From NCBI RefSeq assembly GCF_900021155.1, contig NZ_FCNT01000085.1, positions 1 through 64,000 of the forward strand: a DNA stretch of 64,000 bases, given 5' to 3'. Shown in pieces: positions 4,292 through 59,878 of the stretch. Position numbers and translations under genes: made by a program. Under the pieces are notes generated by a model. The model ran no database searches and was not told the origin of the DNA. It saw only the letters and a program-made list of their open reading frames with translations. This DNA is from Alistipes sp. CHKCI003 (lineage in GTDB: Bacteria; Bacteroidota; Bacteroidia; Bacteroidales; Rikenellaceae). Position 1 is the stretch's first letter. Each line of letters starts with the position of its first letter.

Positions 4292-6307
4292 TTACTCCTC
4301 CAACGCCTTGCGGATCAGAGCTTCGTCGGCGAAGTTGGGCAGCGTAACCCGCAGTCCGGGCGTACGCTCCATTTCGCGCTTGATCGCCGACACGGCACCC
4401 TCGTTGCGGGCCCAGCTGCGGCGGGCGATGCCGTTGTTCACGTCCCAGAGCAGCATCTCGCGGATGTGGCGCGCCGAATCGTCCGATCCGTCGATCACCA
4501 TGCCGAAGCCGCCGTTGATCACCTCGCCCCAGCCGACGCCGCCGCCGTTGTGGATCGAAACCCACGTCGCGCCGCGGAACGCATCGCCGATGACGTTCTG
4601 CACGGCCATGTCGGCCGTGCGGTTCGAACCGTCGTAGATGTTCGACGTCTCGCGGTAGGGCGAGTCGGTGCCCGACACGTCGTGGTGGTCGCGGCCCAGC
4701 ACGACGGGACCCGACAGACGGCCGTCGCGGATGGCCTCGTTGAAGGCCAGCGCAATCTTCGTGCGGCCTTCGGAATCGGCGTAGAGGATGCGCGCCTGCG
4801 AGCCCACGACGAGTTTGTTCTTGCCGGCTTCGCGGATCCAGTGGATGTTGTCGTCGAGCTGTCCGCAGATCTCCGCGGGCGCCGTGCGGCGGATCTCCTC
4901 CAGCACCTCGGCGGCCAGACGGTCCGTGAGTTCCAGATCCTCGGGCTTGCCCGAAGCGCAGACCCAGCGGAAGGGGCCGAAGCCGTAGTCGAAGAACATC
5001 GGGCCCATGATATCCTGCACGTAGGAAGGATAGCGGAAACGCCCCCTCTCGCCCATCACCTCGGCGCCGGCACGCGACGCCTCCAAGAGGAAGGCGTTGC
5101 CGTAGTCGAAGAAGTACATCCCCCCGGCAGCCAGCTTGTTGATCGCCTTGACCTGACGGCGCAGCGACTCCTGCACGCACTCCTTGAAGCGGGCGGGCTC
5201 CTCGGCCATCATCTTGTTCGAAGCCTCGTAGCTCAGGCCCACGGGGTAGTAACCGCCGGCCCACGGGTTGTGGAGCGACGTCTGGTCCGAGCCCAGATCG
5301 ACACGGATGTTCTCTGCGGCAAGGCGCTCCCAGAGGTCCACCACATTGCCCACGTAGGCCAGCGAGACGACCTCCTTCGCCTCCACGGCCTTGCGGATGC
5401 GCGGGATCAGTTCGTCGAGCGACTCGTGCAGTTCGTCGACCCAGCCCTGATCGTAGCGTTTGCGCGCGGCCTTGGGGTTGATCTCTGCCGTAACGCTCAC
5501 CACGCCCGAAATATTGCCTGCCTTGGGCTGTGCGCCCGACATGCCGCCCAGACCCGACGTTACGAACAACATGCCGCGGGCGTCGGTCCGGCCCGGCCCG
5601 AAACGCTTGCGGGCGGCGTTCATCACCGTGATGGTCGTGCCGTGCACGATGCCTTGCGGACCTATATACATATAGGATCCCGCCGTCATCTGGCCGTACT
5701 GCGACACGCCGAGCGCATTGAAACGCTCCCAGTCGTCGGGTTTCGAATAGTTGGGGATCACCATGCCGTTCGTAACGATCACGCGCGGAGCATCCCGGTG
5801 CGACGGAAACAGTCCGAGCGGATGGCCCGAGTACATCACGAGCGTCTGTTCGTCGGTCATCTCCGAGAGGTATTTCATCGTGAGGCGGTACTGCGCCCAG
5901 TTCTGGAACACGGCGCCGTTGCCTCCGTAGGTGATCAGCTCGTGCGGATGCTGGGCCACGGCCTTGTCCAGATTGTTCTGGATCATCAGCATGATGGCCG
6001 CCGCCTGACGCGACTTGTGGGGGTACTCCTCCACCGGACGCGCGTGCATCTCGTAATCGGGACGCAGGCGGTACATGTAGATGCGGCCGTACTTGCGCAG
6101 CTCCTCCGCAAATTCGCGCGCCAGCACGGCGTGGTGCTTCGCGGGGAAGTAGCGCAGGGCGTTTTTGATCGCCAGCACGCGCTCCTCGGGCGTCAGGATC
6201 TCCTTGCGGCGCGGCGCATGGTTGATCTGCTTGTCATAGGGCTTCGCGGCAGGCAGCACATCGGGAATGCCCGCGCGGATATCGTCTTGAAACTCTTGCA
6301 GTGTCAT
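4292..6307 (-). CDS. hutU: Urocanate hydratase
   Basis: Second enzyme of histidine degradation; adds water to urocanate to give imidazolonepropionate using tightly bound NAD+. The GLGGMSGAQPKAGNISG segment is the family's NAD-binding, glycine-rich stretch, and the YMYIGPQGIVHGTT and DQTSLHNPWAGGYYP segments are also characteristic. At 671 residues it is longer than the roughly 550-residue proteobacterial enzymes; the long form is the one I associate with Bacteroidota. It lies three bases after the ftcD stop, so the two form an operon. Confidence 0.97.
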   Translation of the reverse strand: MTLQEFQDDIRAGIPDVLPAAKPYDKQINHAPRRKEILTPEERVLAIKNALRYFPAKHHAVLAREFAEELRKYGRIYMYRLRPDYEMHARPVEEYPHKSRQAAAIMLMIQNNLDKAVAQHPHELITYGGNGAVFQNWAQYRLTMKYLSEMTDEQTLVMYSGHPLGLFPSHRDAPRVIVTNGMVIPNYSKPDDWERFNALGVSQYGQMTAGSYMYIGPQGIVHGTTITVMNAARKRFGPGRTDARGMLFVTSGLGGMSGAQPKAGNISGVVSVTAEINPKAARKRYDQGWVDELHESLDELIPRIRKAVEAKEVVSLAYVGNVVDLWERLAAENIRVDLGSDQTSLHNPWAGGYYPVGLSYEASNKMMAEEPARFKECVQESLRRQVKAINKLAAGGMYFFDYGNAFLLEASRAGAEVMGERGRFRYPSYVQDIMGPMFFDYGFGPFRWVCASGKPEDLELTDRLAAEVLEEIRRTAPAEICGQLDDNIHWIREAGKNKLVVGSQARILYADSEGRTKIALAFNEAIRDGRLSGPVVLGRDHHDVSGTDSPYRETSNIYDGSNRTADMAVQNVIGDAFRGATWVSIHNGGGVGWGEVINGGFGMVIDGSDDSARHIREMLLWDVNNGIARRSWARNEGAVSAIKREMERTPGLRVTLPNFADEALIRKALEE

Positions 6308-10300: not shown

Positions 10301-11593
10301 TCAGGCGAACAGGGCCTCCACCTTGGCCACGACATCCTCCACGTCGGGTTCCAGCGGGAAGATGTGGCTCGGTTTCAGGTACCAGAGCTCCTTGCCCTCC
10401 TTGAAGTGCTCTTCGCCGCCGCCCGTGATGTTGAGCATCACCACGGCATCCTTGGCGATGCGGCCGGCCTCCACGCATTTGACGAGCGACGCCAGCGCCA
10501 CGCCGGCGGCCGAATAAATATCCACGCCCTCCAGCTCCCGGAACAGGGCGCGCGCCTTGCGCGCCTGCGCATTCGTGCAGACCATCACGTCGCCGCCCGT
10601 AGCCTTCAGCGCGTCGTAGAGGCCGCCGGCGATGCCGTAAGGCGGACGGCGGTTCGAGAGCACCTTGGCGTCGATGATCTCGGCGTTGCGGCGCATCTTG
10701 TCCTCGTCGGCCGCGAGCATTTCGCGCGAATCGACCCGCCATGCGTCGTACATCGGCACGAAGGGGGCGTTCTGCGAGACGATCAGCTTCATCAGATTCG
10801 GGCCGTAACGTCCGTCTTCGATGAGCCGCAGGTTGGCCTCCCACGCCGCGATGGCGCCCGTGCCGCTGCCGACGGCCTGAAAATAGTAGTCGGGGATGCG
10901 GCCGATGGTCGTAACGGCCGAGAGCACGGTGGTCGCCATGCCGTCGCGGCGGGCGATGTTCTTGGCGCCGCCCTCGGCATAGAAGTTATCGCCCTTGAGC
11001 GCGAGGTCGCTCAGGCGGATGGCGTCGAAATAGTCGCCTCCGTATTCGCAGCAGATCAGTTTCACGCAGGGATTCAGCGGCTCCTCGAACCAGAGGGCCT
11101 GAAGGTTCTCGGCGGGCACCGCCAGCAGCAGCTTGATGCCGTTGTCGGAGCAGACCTTGGCGAAAGCGCGGGCCGTATTGCCGGCCGAAGCCACCACCAG
11201 CACCCGTTTCTCGTCCTTCGCCGCGCGGGCGCACACCGAGAAAGCTTCGGTCTCCTTGAACGAACAGGTGGTCATTCGGGCGCCGATAGCCGGGTAGTAG
11301 CCGTTGAAGGTGATGTAGAGATTCTCCAGTCCGAGGTGCTTGGCGAGCCCCTTGCTCTTATAGGTTACGGGAGCGGACGAGCCTTCCAGCATGCGGTTGA
11401 CGGGGAGCCAGTCGGCGTATTTGTAGAGCCCGAGCTCGGACGAGCGGACTTCGAGCCGTCTTGCGGCGTAACGGGCCCGAACGAGCGAGGGGGTCTTGCA
11501 GGAGCGGTCCTCCATCATCCAGCCTTCGTCTTCGAACGTGCGGCCCGTGGCAACGCATTCGAGCGTATAGGAAGTGGGTGTAAAATCTTTCAT
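10301..11593 (-). CDS. Cysteate synthase (threonine-synthase-like PLP enzyme)
   Basis: Predicted to make L-cysteate from O-phosphoserine and sulfite with pyridoxal phosphate. The 430-residue protein has the fold type II layout of threonine synthase: substrate-side APVTYKSKGLAKHLG, then the ARMTTCSFKETEA segment bearing the PLP lysine (threonine synthases usually read SFKDR here), ASAGNTARAFA for cofactor phosphate contacts, and VGSGTGAIAAWE. The SFKE variation and the length match the family named cysteate synthase in methanogens and Bacteroidota. In Bacteroidota cysteate is the headgroup precursor of capnine-type sulfonolipids. It lies 29 bp after nspC in the same operon. Threonine synthase proper is the alternative. 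Confidence 0.75.
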   Translation of the reverse strand: MKDFTPTSYTLECVATGRTFEDEGWMMEDRSCKTPSLVRARYAARRLEVRSSELGLYKYADWLPVNRMLEGSSAPVTYKSKGLAKHLGLENLYITFNGYYPAIGARMTTCSFKETEAFSVCARAAKDEKRVLVVASAGNTARAFAKVCSDNGIKLLLAVPAENLQALWFEEPLNPCVKLICCEYGGDYFDAIRLSDLALKGDNFYAEGGAKNIARRDGMATTVLSAVTTIGRIPDYYFQAVGSGTGAIAAWEANLRLIEDGRYGPNLMKLIVSQNAPFVPMYDAWRVDSREMLAADEDKMRRNAEIIDAKVLSNRRPPYGIAGGLYDALKATGGDVMVCTNAQARKARALFRELEGVDIYSAAGVALASLVKCVEAGRIAKDAVVMLNITGGGEEHFKEGKELWYLKPSHIFPLEPDVEDVVAKVEALFA

Positions 11594-13598: not shown

Positions 13599-13711
13599 AA
13601 GGGGCTGTCGAACAAGTTTTTTTAACCCTCCGAGAATGCGTATTCGAAAAAAGTTCTCGAATAGCAGTACGAATAAAAAAGGGGTGTCTAAAACTTGTTA
13701 GACAGCCCCTT
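13599..13711. repeat. Structured intergenic element, copy 1
   Basis: About 112 bp with long terminal inverted repeats: GGGGCTGTC-AACAAGTTTT at the left and its near-complement at the right (AAAACTTGTT-GACAGCCCC). An inner hairpin, TATTCGA with TCGAATA (13641-13663), is followed by the conserved string AATAGCAGTACGAATAAAAAA. A second copy at 15151-15262 keeps the same layout with changed stem bases. The right end abuts the 3' end of tRNA-Lys. Confidence 0.75.
13675..13711 (-). terminator. Terminator downstream of tRNA-Lys
   Basis: Read on the minus strand, GGGGcTGTCTAA pairs with TTAGACACCCC with one bulge, then six T follow. It begins four bases after the tRNA 3' end and is formed by one arm of the structured element, so the element doubles as the tRNA terminator. 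Confidence 0.65.
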
Positions 13712-13714
13712 CCG

Positions 13715-13787
13715 TGATCCCGCTGGGGCTCGAACCCAGGACCCCAACATTAAAAGTGTTGTGCTCTACCAGCTGAGCTACGAGATC
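13715..13787 (-). tRNA. tRNA-Lys (anticodon TTT)
   Basis: A 73-nt cloverleaf. The acceptor stem GATCTCG pairs with CGGGATC (G-U at one step), with discriminator A. The D arm is GCTC-AGCTGGTAGA-GAGC-like, the anticodon stem CAACA/TGTTG encloses CTTTTAA with anticodon TTT, and the T arm contains GGTTCGAGCCCC. CCA is not encoded, as is common in this phylum. Confidence 0.95.
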
Positions 13788-15150: not shown

Positions 15151-15262
15151 CGAAGGCTGTCTGACAAGTTTTTCCACCCTTCGGAAATCGCCTGTTCGGG
15201 AAACGCCCGAATAGCAGTACGAATAAAAAAAGGGTCGTCTAAAACTTGTAAGACAGTCTTCG
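15151..15262. repeat. Structured intergenic element, copy 2
   Basis: Same architecture as copy 1. Terminal arms are CGAAGGCTGTCTGACAAG (left) and CTTGTAAGACAGTCTTCG (right); the inner hairpin is TTCGGG/CCCGAA, followed by AATAGCAGTACGAATAAAAAA. Stem bases differ from copy 1 but still pair, which suggests the folded form matters. It lies downstream of the synthase gene and may end its transcript. Confidence 0.75.
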
Positions 15263-15920: not shown

Positions 15921-16036
15921 GTGAACCGTGAACCGTGAACCGTGAACCGTGAACCGTGAACCGTGAACCGTGAACCGTGAACCGTGAACCGTGAACCGTG
16001 AACCGTGAACCGTGAACCGTGAACCGTGAACCGTGA
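15921..16036 (+). repeat. (GTGAACC)n heptanucleotide tandem repeat
   Basis: About 16.6 uninterrupted copies of the 7-mer GTGAACC, all identical. The array starts about 15 bp after the -7 box and ends about 78 bp before the upxY ATG, so it lies in the presumed untranslated leader. Perfect copy identity suggests recent expansion and a likely variable copy number. It is followed by the small palindrome CCGTGA-A-TCACGG. Confidence 0.97.
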
Positions 16037-16114
16037 ATCACGGCGGGGCGGGAATGAATTTGAAAATAGAAAAACGCCGGCTGTCCTCCACAAGGCAGCC
16101 GTCCACACGAAGAT

Positions 16115-18235: not shown

Positions 18236-19088
18236 CATACTCATCACAGGCGCCAACGGGCAGCTCGGCAGCGAATTGCGGCGGCTCGGAGCCGCATCGC
18301 GGCACCGCTATGTCTACACAGACGCGGCCGAACTCGACATCACCTCCGAAGAGGCCGTGCGCCGCACGATCCGCGACGAGCGGATCGACGCGATCGTCAA
18401 CTGCGCGGCCTACACCAACGTGGACCGGGCCGAGGAGGACGAAGCGACGGCCGATCTGCTGAACCACCGGGCGGTCGCCATTCTGGCCGGCGCCGCGAAG
18501 GAGTACGGCGCCACGCTGATCCACATCTCGACGGACTACGTGTTCCGCGGCAACGGCAACACCCCCTGCCGCGAAGAGGAGCCGACCGACCCGCTGGGCG
18601 TGTACGGGCGGACGAAGCTCGCAGGTGAAGCGGCGGTGCAGGCATCAGGATGCAAATACCTGATTTTCCGCACGGCATGGCTCTACTCCGAATTCGGCAA
18701 CAACTTCGTGAAAACCATGCTGCGCCTCACGGGCGAACGCGAGCGGCTGACGGTCGTGTTCGATCAGGTCGGCACGCCGACCTATGCGGCCGATCTGGCC
18801 GAGGCGATCTTCGGCATCCTCGAAAACGGCGCTTACGAAGGCCGCGAAGGCATCTATCACTTTTCGGACGAAGGGGTCTGCTCGTGGTACGACTTCGCCC
18901 ACGAAATCGCACGCATAGCAGGCCGCACGAACTGCGAGATCCTGCCCTGCCACTCGTCCGAATACCCCTCGAAAGTCCGGAGGCCGGCCTTCTCGGTGCT
19001 CGACAAGAGTAAAGTCAAACAGACGTTCGGCATCGCGGTCCCCCATTGGCGCGACTCGCTGATACGCTGCATGCAAAGATTGAAATAA
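18228..19088 (+). CDS. rmlD: dTDP-4-dehydrorhamnose reductase
   Basis: NAD(P)H-dependent reductase for the last step to dTDP-L-rhamnose. The 286-residue short-chain dehydrogenase has ITGANGQLGSEL at the N-terminus, STDYVFRG, and the catalytic YGRTK (YxxxK) in DPLGVYGRTKLAGE. It lies between rmlC and rmlB in the same operon. Confidence 0.97.
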   Translation: MLNILITGANGQLGSELRRLGAASRHRYVYTDAAELDITSEEAVRRTIRDERIDAIVNCAAYTNVDRAEEDEATADLLNHRAVAILAGAAKEYGATLIHISTDYVFRGNGNTPCREEEPTDPLGVYGRTKLAGEAAVQASGCKYLIFRTAWLYSEFGNNFVKTMLRLTGERERLTVVFDQVGTPTYAADLAEAIFGILENGAYEGREGIYHFSDEGVCSWYDFAHEIARIAGRTNCEILPCHSSEYPSKVRRPAFSVLDKSKVKQTFGIAVPHWRDSLIRCMQRLK

Positions 19089-57092: not shown

Positions 57093-57152
57093 TCACTGCG
57101 CTCCGCCGTTGTCCTTCCTCCAGATCTGATAAGAGTTCACGAAGTTCTGCCA
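57093..57152 (-). pseudogene. Displaced original 3' end of the symporter gene
   Basis: On the minus strand these bases read WQNFVNSYQIWRKDNGGAQ and a stop in host-like GC-rich codons. The same WQNFVNSYQI is repeated in the intact symporter gene 1.72 kb away. This is the old gene tail cut off by insertion of the ApeA island. The upstream bases (57153 onward) belong to the island. Confidence 0.85.
57135..57152. repeat. Left 18-bp direct repeat (att-like)
   Basis: GTTCACGAAGTTCTGCCA is identical to 58855-58872. A weaker match continues outward (AGATnTGATA), where synonymous differences occur. Confidence 0.9.
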
Positions 57153-57272
57153 CATATTATTTACTCTCGTTTGTATTCATCTGATTATTAATAAATAGAA
57201 TAAAGCCTTTCTTGCGACAAGTAACAAAATAGCAACAAAAATATGTTCAAAAAGCGCATTTAGGAATGTGCT

Positions 57273-58559
57273 CTATGCACTGAAATTATAAGTGCTTTTC
57301 GATAGCAATTTATTGATGTTTTCATGCGAGAAGCCTATAAAGGTCAGCATACAACATATCAATAAATTTCTCAGCTTCCTTGTCATATAGTATAATTCTG
57401 CGCCATCAAGTGTTTTCGGTTTCTTTGATTTATTCATGAAATGCGAGTAATAGTTGCGAGAATCAATAGCTGCCGCAATATCTATTTCATCGCACTTGAG
57501 CTTTGTAATACCGTTGAAATCTCGAATTAAAGAAGTTAATAGAACTTTAGGCCCCTTATCTCCATAAAGGAATCGAATGGCAAAGCCTTCAATAGCCTGA
57601 AATACAATCAAGAAATCAAGACTACTAAAACTATTTTTCTGCTTAATGCTTTCTATAAGATGAGTACGAATCGGTGCAATATCATACGATTCTAAATACC
57701 ACTTCTTAATAATATTGGGATAATTTTCTTTGATAGCATTGTATTCGAATAGAAAATTTACATTTTTATCATTCCATTTCGAACGGTCTTTTCGGCCATA
57801 ATGCAACTGAATCTTTGTATATATTTTCCTTCCATTATTTAATTCTTGGTATAGATCATCGTCTTGGAGCCAAATATCTGAAGCAGACGCATCCGAAAGA
57901 GCTGCAAATGACAAAAACTGTTCATAGACATGTATATCGTGCAGGAAAGAGCCTAAATGATCTTTTTGTGGCTTTTTAATTACCAAAGAGGTTGATTGTT
58001 CTATTTTAGGACATCTCAAATCCCCGCAATAAGTTACAGTTCGATGCAACTCTATTGTCGTACCTTCTACATCCACAGAAACAATAGGATGCTCTATTTG
58101 TTCCGTATCAATAATCAATGACAATCTTTTTATTGTTGTCTTATCATCTTTGAATAATTGGGTTTGTTGAATTGCCGCGGGAAAACACCATTGTGTCAAT
58201 GCCGGAATTTTAACATGGCAACTGTTAAAAGCTAATTCATCATACGACCGCACATATTTTCCTGTGATAACAAATTGCACAGAATACCGCATTATCGGGA
58301 AATGACAGCTCAAATTAAGATGTTTCCCAATAAGGTGGCAGTTGAGCAATGTTATTCTTTTCGCATCTGAATTTACACCCCAAATTACAGTATGTGATTT
58401 TTGTTCGAATATAGCCATCAACGGCTCGTCATGAGCGTCAATATCACCGATCAATTCGAGTATTGCTGAATCATTAGCTTTGAAAGTTAAAATTCCAGCA
58501 ACTTGATGATCTTCGCAATCTGGCAAATACCAATATCCTTTATATTCAAAATCATCCAT
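57273..58559 (-). CDS. ApeA-like HEPN anti-phage protein
   Basis: Predicted single-gene abortive-infection defence protein. The N-terminal half begins YKGYWYLPDCEDHQVAGILTF, the pattern of the ApeA N-terminal domain (GxW.LP....GxLxF), a beta-rich sensor-like part. The C-terminal ~150 residues are helical and contain SRNYYSHF, a HEPN RNase motif (Arg368-x4-His373). In known ApeA proteins this domain is required for defence and is thought to cut RNA after phage sensing. Codons are AT-rich, unlike all neighbours. ATG at 58559 chosen; TTG at 58565 is the longer alternative. Assignment is by motif recall, without a search. Confidence 0.8.
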   Translation of the reverse strand: MDDFEYKGYWYLPDCEDHQVAGILTFKANDSAILELIGDIDAHDEPLMAIFEQKSHTVIWGVNSDAKRITLLNCHLIGKHLNLSCHFPIMRYSVQFVITGKYVRSYDELAFNSCHVKIPALTQWCFPAAIQQTQLFKDDKTTIKRLSLIIDTEQIEHPIVSVDVEGTTIELHRTVTYCGDLRCPKIEQSTSLVIKKPQKDHLGSFLHDIHVYEQFLSFAALSDASASDIWLQDDDLYQELNNGRKIYTKIQLHYGRKDRSKWNDKNVNFLFEYNAIKENYPNIIKKWYLESYDIAPIRTHLIESIKQKNSFSSLDFLIVFQAIEGFAIRFLYGDKGPKVLLTSLIRDFNGITKLKCDEIDIAAAIDSRNYYSHFMNKSKKPKTLDGAELYYMTRKLRNLLICCMLTFIGFSHENINKLLSKSTYNFSA

Positions 58560-58854
58560 TATCAAATCTATTTTATCATAACGGTAATGATAATTGGCAA
58601 ACTTACCCTATCACTTGTCGAGTTACAGTTTTATTCCGATTCTACGATTCCAGAAACTCGTATTTCCGTTTACCACCGACGTAATTCTCCTTGCGGATCA
58701 CATCGCCCATATTATTTTCGGGTAACAAATGGTAATTATCGGCTTTATTGAGAAACTTACTAAAACAACCGAAAAATCTACAATCAAATATAAAATACTG
58801 TGTCTATATTCAATTTTTCGTTATTTCTCTATCTTTTTTGTAGATTTGATAGCT
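58560..58854. other. Upstream region of the ApeA gene
   Basis: TAGATTTG (58563-58570, minus strand) ends four bases before the ATG, and TAAGTTTG (58597-58604 region) lies further up; either could be the -7 element. A minus-strand frame of 22 codons (58642-58710, starting MGDVIRKENYVGGK) has protein-like composition and may be a remnant of a second cargo gene. No other feature is seen. Confidence 0.4.
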
Positions 58855-59718
58855 GTTCACGAAGTTCTGCCAGACGATGTATGCCGTCGGGGCGATCGAC
58901 GAAACGGGGTCGAGAAACGACTGCGCCATCCACACCGCCAGCACCGTATTCTTCTGTCCGAGCGACTGCCCGCCCGCCACGACATCTCCGTAGCGGCGTC
59001 CGAGCATGCGGCCCGCCTTGAACTGTATGAGGCAGATCGCAAGCGCCACGAGAGCCAGCCCCGCTTCGAGCCGGAAATCGGCGTCGTGCAGATCGAGGAT
59101 GAAAGCCGTCGTGCGGGCGATCACCACCGTGAGCGACACGAGCCACAGGTAGAACGAGATCTGGCTGTGGTCGCCGATCCAGCGCGACGCCTTCGGCGCG
59201 AGAAACCGGCACACCTGCGCCGCGGCGAAAGGCATAACGAGCAGCGGTGCGACCCGGGCGAGAATCTGCGCGAACGTGCAGGATCCGTTGCCCGTGAACG
59301 ACAAAACGACGGGGGCCGCTATGGCAATGGTCATGTTGCACAGCAGGCTGTAAGTGGCCATCGTAGGCACGTCGGCCCCGAGCATGCCGCCGATCACGAC
59401 GGCGGCCATGGCGATCGGCGCCAGCACGCAAATCATGCCTCCCTGCGCCAGAACTCCGTTCAGCGGACTCAGTGCGAAGAAGACCGCCACACTACCCACG
59501 ATCTGAAAGAGCAGCATCCACAGATGGAGCATACTCGGCCGCATCTGTTTGGGTTTCACGCGGCAGAAGGTGAAGAAGAGCATCAGAAAGATCAGCGTCG
59601 GCGTGATCATCTGGTGCGACCACGCTTCGAGCGCCGAGATCGGACGGCACAACAGGGCTCCGACCACCATCCCCAGCGGCATCGCAACGGTCTTGACGTT
59701 GCGATGCAGGTTCTCCAT
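58810..59718 (-). CDS. Bile acid:sodium symporter-family transporter with exchanged C-terminus
   Basis: Inner-membrane carrier of 302 residues with about nine to ten hydrophobic segments (BASS/SBF family). LIFLMLFFTFCRVKP and GQSLGQKNTVLAVWMAQSFLDPVSSIAPTAYIVWQN match the family core. The last residues after NSYQI (YKKDREITKN) come from the inserted island; the original ending was WRKDNGGAQ. The exchange leaves the membrane core intact, so the protein is probably still functional. Alternative starts exist at 59727 and 59784. The solute is unknown. Confidence 0.88.
   Translation of the reverse strand: MENLHRNVKTVAMPLGMVVGALLCRPISALEAWSHQMITPTLIFLMLFFTFCRVKPKQMRPSMLHLWMLLFQIVGSVAVFFALSPLNGVLAQGGMICVLAPIAMAAVVIGGMLGADVPTMATYSLLCNMTIAIAAPVVLSFTGNGSCTFAQILARVAPLLVMPFAAAQVCRFLAPKASRWIGDHSQISFYLWLVSLTVVIARTTAFILDLHDADFRLEAGLALVALAICLIQFKAGRMLGRRYGDVVAGGQSLGQKNTVLAVWMAQSFLDPVSSIAPTAYIVWQNFVNSYQIYKKDREITKN
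58855..58872. repeat. Right 18-bp direct repeat (att-like)
   Basis: Second copy of GTTCACGAAGTTCTGCCA, inside the symporter coding sequence, encoding WQNFVN on the minus strand. Confidence 0.9.
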
Positions 59719-59878
59719 TACGTGCATTTCATTCCGAAATTCAGACAGTAAGCCTCGCGCCGGCCGCCGGCGGACATTCCGCACCCCGACATTCCGGCCC
59801 AGAACCGCGGATGCGAGTTTCCCGGCACCGGAACGCTCTTCCGCACCGGCCGCGAGGCAAAACGACCGCCTCCTACGC

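Follow-up and report, generated by a model that had tools for sequence, protein, structure and literature searches.

CIMEs, in the part of the review drawn on here (PMC5704250), are decayed ICEs or IMEs that keep attL and attR and have lost their transfer and integration genes. Concerning defence genes, some hotspots show no visible means of movement; at one such hotspot in E. coli 68% of the cases, by the excerpted account (PMC10121019), are without a detectable mobile element. ApeA figures as a HEPN-family defence protein in the section used of PMC3710099. Here we describe a small apeA-bearing island in the window, i.e. the whole stretch of 64,000 nucleotides that was analysed (Alistipes sp. 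CHKCI003, contig NZ_FCNT01000085.1; genome handle G000, other genomes of the genus being numbered likewise). The comparisons presented below make it very probable that the island is the leftover (a CIME, a deletion derivative) of an IME whose intact relatives occupy the same site.

The island and the exchanged gene tail

The island, 1.72 kb long and AT-rich, is flanked by two identical copies of an 18-bp direct repeat (57135-57152 and 58855-58872), between which the GC content falls from about 0.60-0.68 outside to about 0.33-0.41. Allowing for up to 2 mismatches, the window contains no other match to the repeat, and since 0 matches are expected (100 shuffles) a chance repeat is ruled out; the rest of the genome holds a sole further match to this core, with 2 mismatches. 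The features of the locus are as follows.

57093-57152, minus strand: orphaned original 3' end of the transporter gene, 60 bp, beginning with the distal core and reading WQNFVNSYQIWRKDNGGAQ*
57135-57152, minus strand: distal 18-bp core (attR side), exact repeat
57153-57243, minus strand: element right end, matching G060, G111 and G195 at about 79-83% and G114 at 75%, over 85-93 bp
57221-57239, minus strand: TTTGTT(A/G)C motif pair, putative arm sites, 87 and 76 bp from the distal core
57273-58559, minus strand: apeA, 428 aa, HEPN motif RNYYSH at residues 368-373
58639-58652, minus strand: deletion joint, which connects integrase codon ~54 to the final codons of a gene for a UvrD-type helicase
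58651-58712, minus strand: scrap of the IME integrase gene, 62 bp (90% at the DNA level, E 3e-19), from the arm-binding domain region
58722-58729, minus strand: remaining left TTTGTTAC motif, putative integrase arm site
58722-58872, minus strand: element left end including the core, 74% to G060 and 78% to G013
58810-58854, minus strand: element-borne replacement gene tail (SYQIYKKDREITKN), with similar tails on other element ends
58855-58872, minus strand: transporter-side 18-bp core (attL side), at the equivalent position in G060, G111 and G195
58810-59784, minus strand: target gene, an ORF for a conserved transporter-like protein, upstream start uncertain, last codons element-derived

The target gene is called transporter for short. 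Its product matched no Pfam or NCBIfam family, and no chain in a PDB sequence search, hence the first-pass annotation's identification of a symporter is not borne out; a homologue on one plasmid record, at 34% identity, is annotated 'transporter'. Relatives at E<=1e-60 were found in 153 of the 180 genus genomes; in a set of 101 genomes the gene is present in 72 (relatives and own), and the surroundings of its 3' end were inspected in 40 stretches. The transporter-side core keeps the reading frame, and the present end of the gene is YQIYKKDREITKN, its AT-rich tail reading YKKDREITKN, and the GC-rich tail WRKDNGGAQ sits past the distal core. Joining the flanks by script gives a 323-codon frame that ends in the original tail. 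These readings support integration at the 3' end of a protein-coding gene with exchange of its tail: such integration would swap the last codons of the gene for a protein-compatible tail borne by the element, and the old tail would be left as an orphan past the distal core. The repeat with its coordinates, identity and GC drop, the position of the right copy within the coding region, the 3'-end exchange with its 60-bp orphan and the synonymous codon differences outside the core had all been described in the first-pass annotation, and all were confirmed.

The one long gene of the island belongs to the ApeA family, as that annotation had also called it, with Pfam matches to ApeA_NTD1 (the PF18862/PF18739 pair with HEPN_Apea; 4.6e-43) and HEPN_Apea (9.7e-13), both above the curated cut-offs, and PADLOC matches to PDC-S58 and Cas13-ApeA. 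Its start is likely the ATG at 58559, which gives the 428 aa. The HEPN R-x4-6-H motif, which has a catalytic role, is present as RNYYSH in the window and as RHYYSH in G114 (Alistipes sp. isolate MAG_RACS_018). By family membership apeA is a probable virus-defence gene, whose product would presumably act as a HEPN ribonuclease in phage defence; no PDB chain was matched by a sequence search with it. Relatives at E<=1e-5 occur in 3 of the 180 genus genomes, namely the window's own, G114 (80% identical) and G025 (44%, not beside the transporter contig), and G114 is the only one besides the window with a close apeA. A family-level genome scan with ApeA returned MAG_RACS_018 only, the window's own genome records being possibly left out there. 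Between the window and G114 apeA shows a dN/dS of 0.16 at a dS of 0.66, so purifying selection has acted on the gene, perhaps for some of the time while it sat on the intact element.

Other repeats of the window comprise a 28-nt repeat (96%) at 13658-13685 and 15208-15235, with one copy beside tRNA-Lys (13714-13787) and a dehydrogenase-like ORF between the copies, and a tandem array of the heptamer GTGAACC at about 15921-16038.

Complete elements and the remains of deleted genes

At the same site G060 carries two cores 12,132 bp apart and G111 two cores with 11,408 bp between them. The window island aligns to both ends of the G060 element, with element end sequence on the inner side of each of its two retained cores. 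Directly beside the transporter G060 encodes a tyrosine integrase (Phage_integrase, Phage_int_SAM_5 and Arm-DNA-bind_5 domains), i.e. a site-specific integrase of its own as defines an IME, together with an AbiLi-like ATPase and an RloB protein, an HTH protein, an AAA ATPase, a primase-like protein, a MobV relaxase, a DUF2971 protein and an HNH protein. The relaxase, tested in G060, scores 197 bits against an NCBIfam cut-off of 100, and no T4SS-type family was found among the 11 element proteins scanned in Pfam (short ORFs lay outside the scan); the element thus has the other mark of an IME, its own relaxase without a conjugation apparatus in the scanned proteins. In complete members the integrase adjoins the transporter and is followed by the HTH protein, the AAA ATPase, the primase and the MobV relaxase; cargo lies close to the integrase and also close to the distal end.

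The cargo varies, and by family match it appears defence-like. It consists of the AbiLi-like ATPase and the RloB/AbiLii-like protein in G060, and of an AAA protein in G111, whose PADLOC matches are of AriA, RT-Toprim, Old and GajA types, none decisive. In G195 (L179, G195:C18:24000-36500) an island of 5.5 kb with both cores (11077-11094 and 5540-5557) holds a ResIII-type helicase gene, with weak PADLOC matches, and an HNH gene; its integrase is deleted, which makes it the second island of this kind. The HNH gene adjoins the distal end in G060 (Pfam-tested there only), G111 and G195 (88% DNA identity), and apeA takes this place in G114 and in the window. Other cargo between the same repeats, which the first-pass annotation had proposed to look for, is hence present in G060, G111 and G195.

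The cargo of G114 is a UvrD-type helicase and ApeA. Its apeA follows the helicase gene and ends about 120 bp before the distal core, with a similar right end, and an 8.3-kb contig holds the integrase-to-relaxase block at 93% DNA identity to G060. G114 is split over three contigs, the first ~10 integrase codons being replaced by other sequence at a contig start, so an intact apeA-bearing IME was not seen as one piece.

The first-pass annotation stated that no recombinase is encoded on the island. This holds for an intact gene; however, an in-frame tyrosine-integrase fragment lies at 58648-58712, with codons 35-54 (58648-58707) matching G060 at 19 of 20 amino acids (tblastn E 1e-8). The integration gene has been lost down to 62 bp, and this scrap means that the missing recombinase was deleted and rules out a cassette that never had one. 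The relaxase gene has been lost as well, no relaxase ORF being present in the 1.72 kb, and the deletion crosses the relaxase block that G114 and G060 retain. Its joint was placed by comparison with the integrases of G060 and G013 and with the helicase end of G114. From the last helicase codons through the distal core the window aligns to G114 at 82%, so the large deletion spans integrase codon ~54 to the end of the helicase gene. A smaller deletion took away a single 11-bp motif repeat, the region upstream of the integrase and ~34 codons. The window lineage would then, presumably after a complete member had occupied the site, have undergone both deletions, the smaller (a) and the larger (b), and be left with attL, the 62-bp integrase scrap, apeA and attR, a residue presumably immobile at present.

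The first-pass reading of a minimal, swappable, recombinase-free cassette is at odds with a family that has its own integrase and relaxase, and with a window copy that is a two-deletion derivative keeping a scrap. A naturally recombinase-free minimal cassette, moved between genomes here by integrases acting in trans, would fit the intact cores and right-end motif pair of the window, and G195 is a further integrase-deleted island with both cores; yet deleted genes have left their traces in the integrase scrap and the helicase-gene end, the short form occurs in no second genome among the 180, the window genome has no close integrase (best 46%) and one left motif is lost, all of which leaves this account very improbable. 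G114, with the only other close apeA, lacks the deletion joint, so movement of the short form itself is not in evidence here. Even harder to credit is an assembly artefact that collapsed or broke up a complete IME actually present: the window genome is in 105 contigs and the related assemblies G032, G209 and G114 break near the site, but none of its contigs carries the family integrase (again 46% at best), the joints lie inside genes and completeness is 99.94%.

Arrival of an already stripped island by homologous recombination through the flanking transporter, instead of by an integrase, is the third alternative. To G114 the transporter has a near-saturated dS of 2.34, as compared with the 0.66 of apeA, so the island is younger here than its target gene, and the chromosome around the site varies between species. 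A donor with the same joint was, however, not found, and we consider this route improbable. No empty site with the window's MFS neighbour next to it turned up in another species, the best relatives of that gene being located elsewhere or in a different gene order.

Concerning the chemistry of integration, base 9 of the core is T on the transporter side and C on the distal side in G060 and G111, and base 18 differs between the cores of G060 and likewise between an occupied and an empty allele in G013. These differences place the crossover probably in TTCGTGAA, and TGGCAGAACTTCGTGAAC would be the integration and excision site, presumably recognized by the family integrase. At the left end the TTTGTTAC motif is present twice, 11 bp apart, in G060, G111, G013 and G191; the window and G110 have 1, G113 and G190 have 0 in the 400 bp scanned, and G195 lacks the left motif and has one near its right end. 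The right-end pair has the same 87/76-bp spacing in G060, G111, G114 and the window. These motif pairs resemble arm sites for the integrase, in which an arm-binding domain is present.

Occupancy of the site and transfer between species

The two G013 alleles belong to one MAG: contig C58 is occupied (L114), and contig C115 (L036) starts with exactly 81 bp identical to C58, splits from it at the core and continues with a host-type tail, i.e. a precise empty site. The sampled population hence held both states, by excision or in mixed strains, and the alleles could be mixed strains. Single-copy sites, which the first-pass annotation had proposed to look for in relatives, are many besides this one; relatives do not all carry both copies, and the two tails do occur as alternative endings of the gene.

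An element end at this gene was detected in 14 of the 180 genus genomes, 13 by the left end and G114 by the distal end. By the state of the integrase they divide as follows.

Full-length (3): G060, G111, G013
Nearly full, start not seen (1): G114
Damaged (5): G000 (the window), G195 (~6 codons), G191, G190 (47 bp from the C-terminal region), G113 (stop-containing fragment)
Left end only (4): G110 (165 bp), G012, G205, G213
Contig ends too soon (1): G209

G012, G205 and G213 are weaker calls, their matches of 59-79 bp being mostly the gene tail itself. In G191 (L111, G191:C12:1-5651) the integrase is cut at 182 aa and fused to the relaxase gene over a 7-kb deletion. The joint falls on a short direct repeat, ATTGAAAACCG, which occurs at both positions in G060, and the G191 contig ends there. 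Both cores were seen in G000, G060, G111 and G195, and elsewhere the contig ends or splits, or no second core lies in the stretch. The core was read in 71 genomes: of the 32 in which it has <=1 mismatch 13 are occupied, and of the 39 with more mismatches none is. Occupied cores stem in part from the element, which biases this count. Two genomes with weak element-like tails, G054 and G210, were counted as unoccupied, and beyond these 71 the census rests on DNA searches, the 3' end having been read in part of the 153 genomes. In G012 (contig C66, L042) a RibD_C/DHFR-like gene (18276-18806) follows the element-like tail; no second core is present in the 19 kb read.

For the pairs G060-G013, G060-G114, G060-G191 and G013-G114 the integrase dS is 0.25-0.31 and that of the transporter 0.88-2.58, so the element family moves between species. 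The pair G060-G111, with an integrase dS of 1.42 above the transporter's 1.02, shows no recent transfer, and the G111 element is an older branch.

Wider searches with the integrase gave, in an order sample of 393 genomes including the window's, a single relative at E<=1e-120, which is fragmentary (71%) and interrupted by a stop; a PDB sequence search returned distant recombinases only. A plasmid origin was rejected, all 596 plasmid records matched by tblastn being below 60% identity, as was a phage origin; of the 584 phage records with a match, one reached 80-90% and another 60-80%. A scan of viral contigs gave six integrase relatives at 37-65% identity, and the exact right-end/core 23-mer was found in none of the viral contigs scanned. 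The phage record at 80-90%, MT838894.1 (L201), bears the name Bacteriophage sp. and comes from human faeces; it is chromosome-like DNA with transporter, attL and an integrase 88.5% identical, and its exchanged tail has an early stop.

Comparison with known systems

A limited literature search, in which sources were drawn on in part, found neither this IME family nor its integration site in Alistipes. Judged from sequence, the island fits the CIME definition as worded in the excerpt of PMC5704250: integration and transfer genes are lost, both cores are kept and the parents are known at the same site, the difference being its very small size (1.72 kb) and single defence-type gene. The complete members resemble NBU1, NBU2, Tn4555 and Tn5520, as outlined in that same excerpt (PMC5704250), in having a tyrosine integrase and their own relaxase with no conjugation apparatus seen. 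Tn5520 has a MobV relaxase as in the Alistipes family, whereas NBU1 and NBU2 are there given tRNA 3' ends and MobP, in contrast to a transporter-gene 3' end and defence-like cargo here. In the portions used of PMC5704250 and PMC8409611, SGI1 at thdF/trmE likewise has a protein-gene tail in its att site and leaves the gene undisrupted, but its hosts and target gene are others and its transfer strategy is unrelated. ApeA itself shares with the proteins of PMC3710099 the fusion of ApeA_NTD1 to a HEPN domain with R-x4-H; the excerpt of that paper mentions restriction-modification operons in epsilonproteobacteria, whereas the context in the window is an IME remnant.

It is conceivable, if rather doubtful, that such loci pass through a cycle in which IMEs bring defence genes and lose their integrase and mobilization genes, the cores and cargo staying (as in G000 and G195) as substrates for the integrase of the next IME. 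If so, integrase-less defence islands would be a selected, re-mobilizable stage and not debris. Integration at gene 3' ends, decay to a CIME and defence cargo are each already known singly. What is unusual is the completeness of the series at one locus, from an intact IME to a stranded defence gene with a precise empty site. Since one place shows the parent element together with the empty site and several stages of decay, this locus offers a testable route from a mobilizable element to a stranded defence gene.
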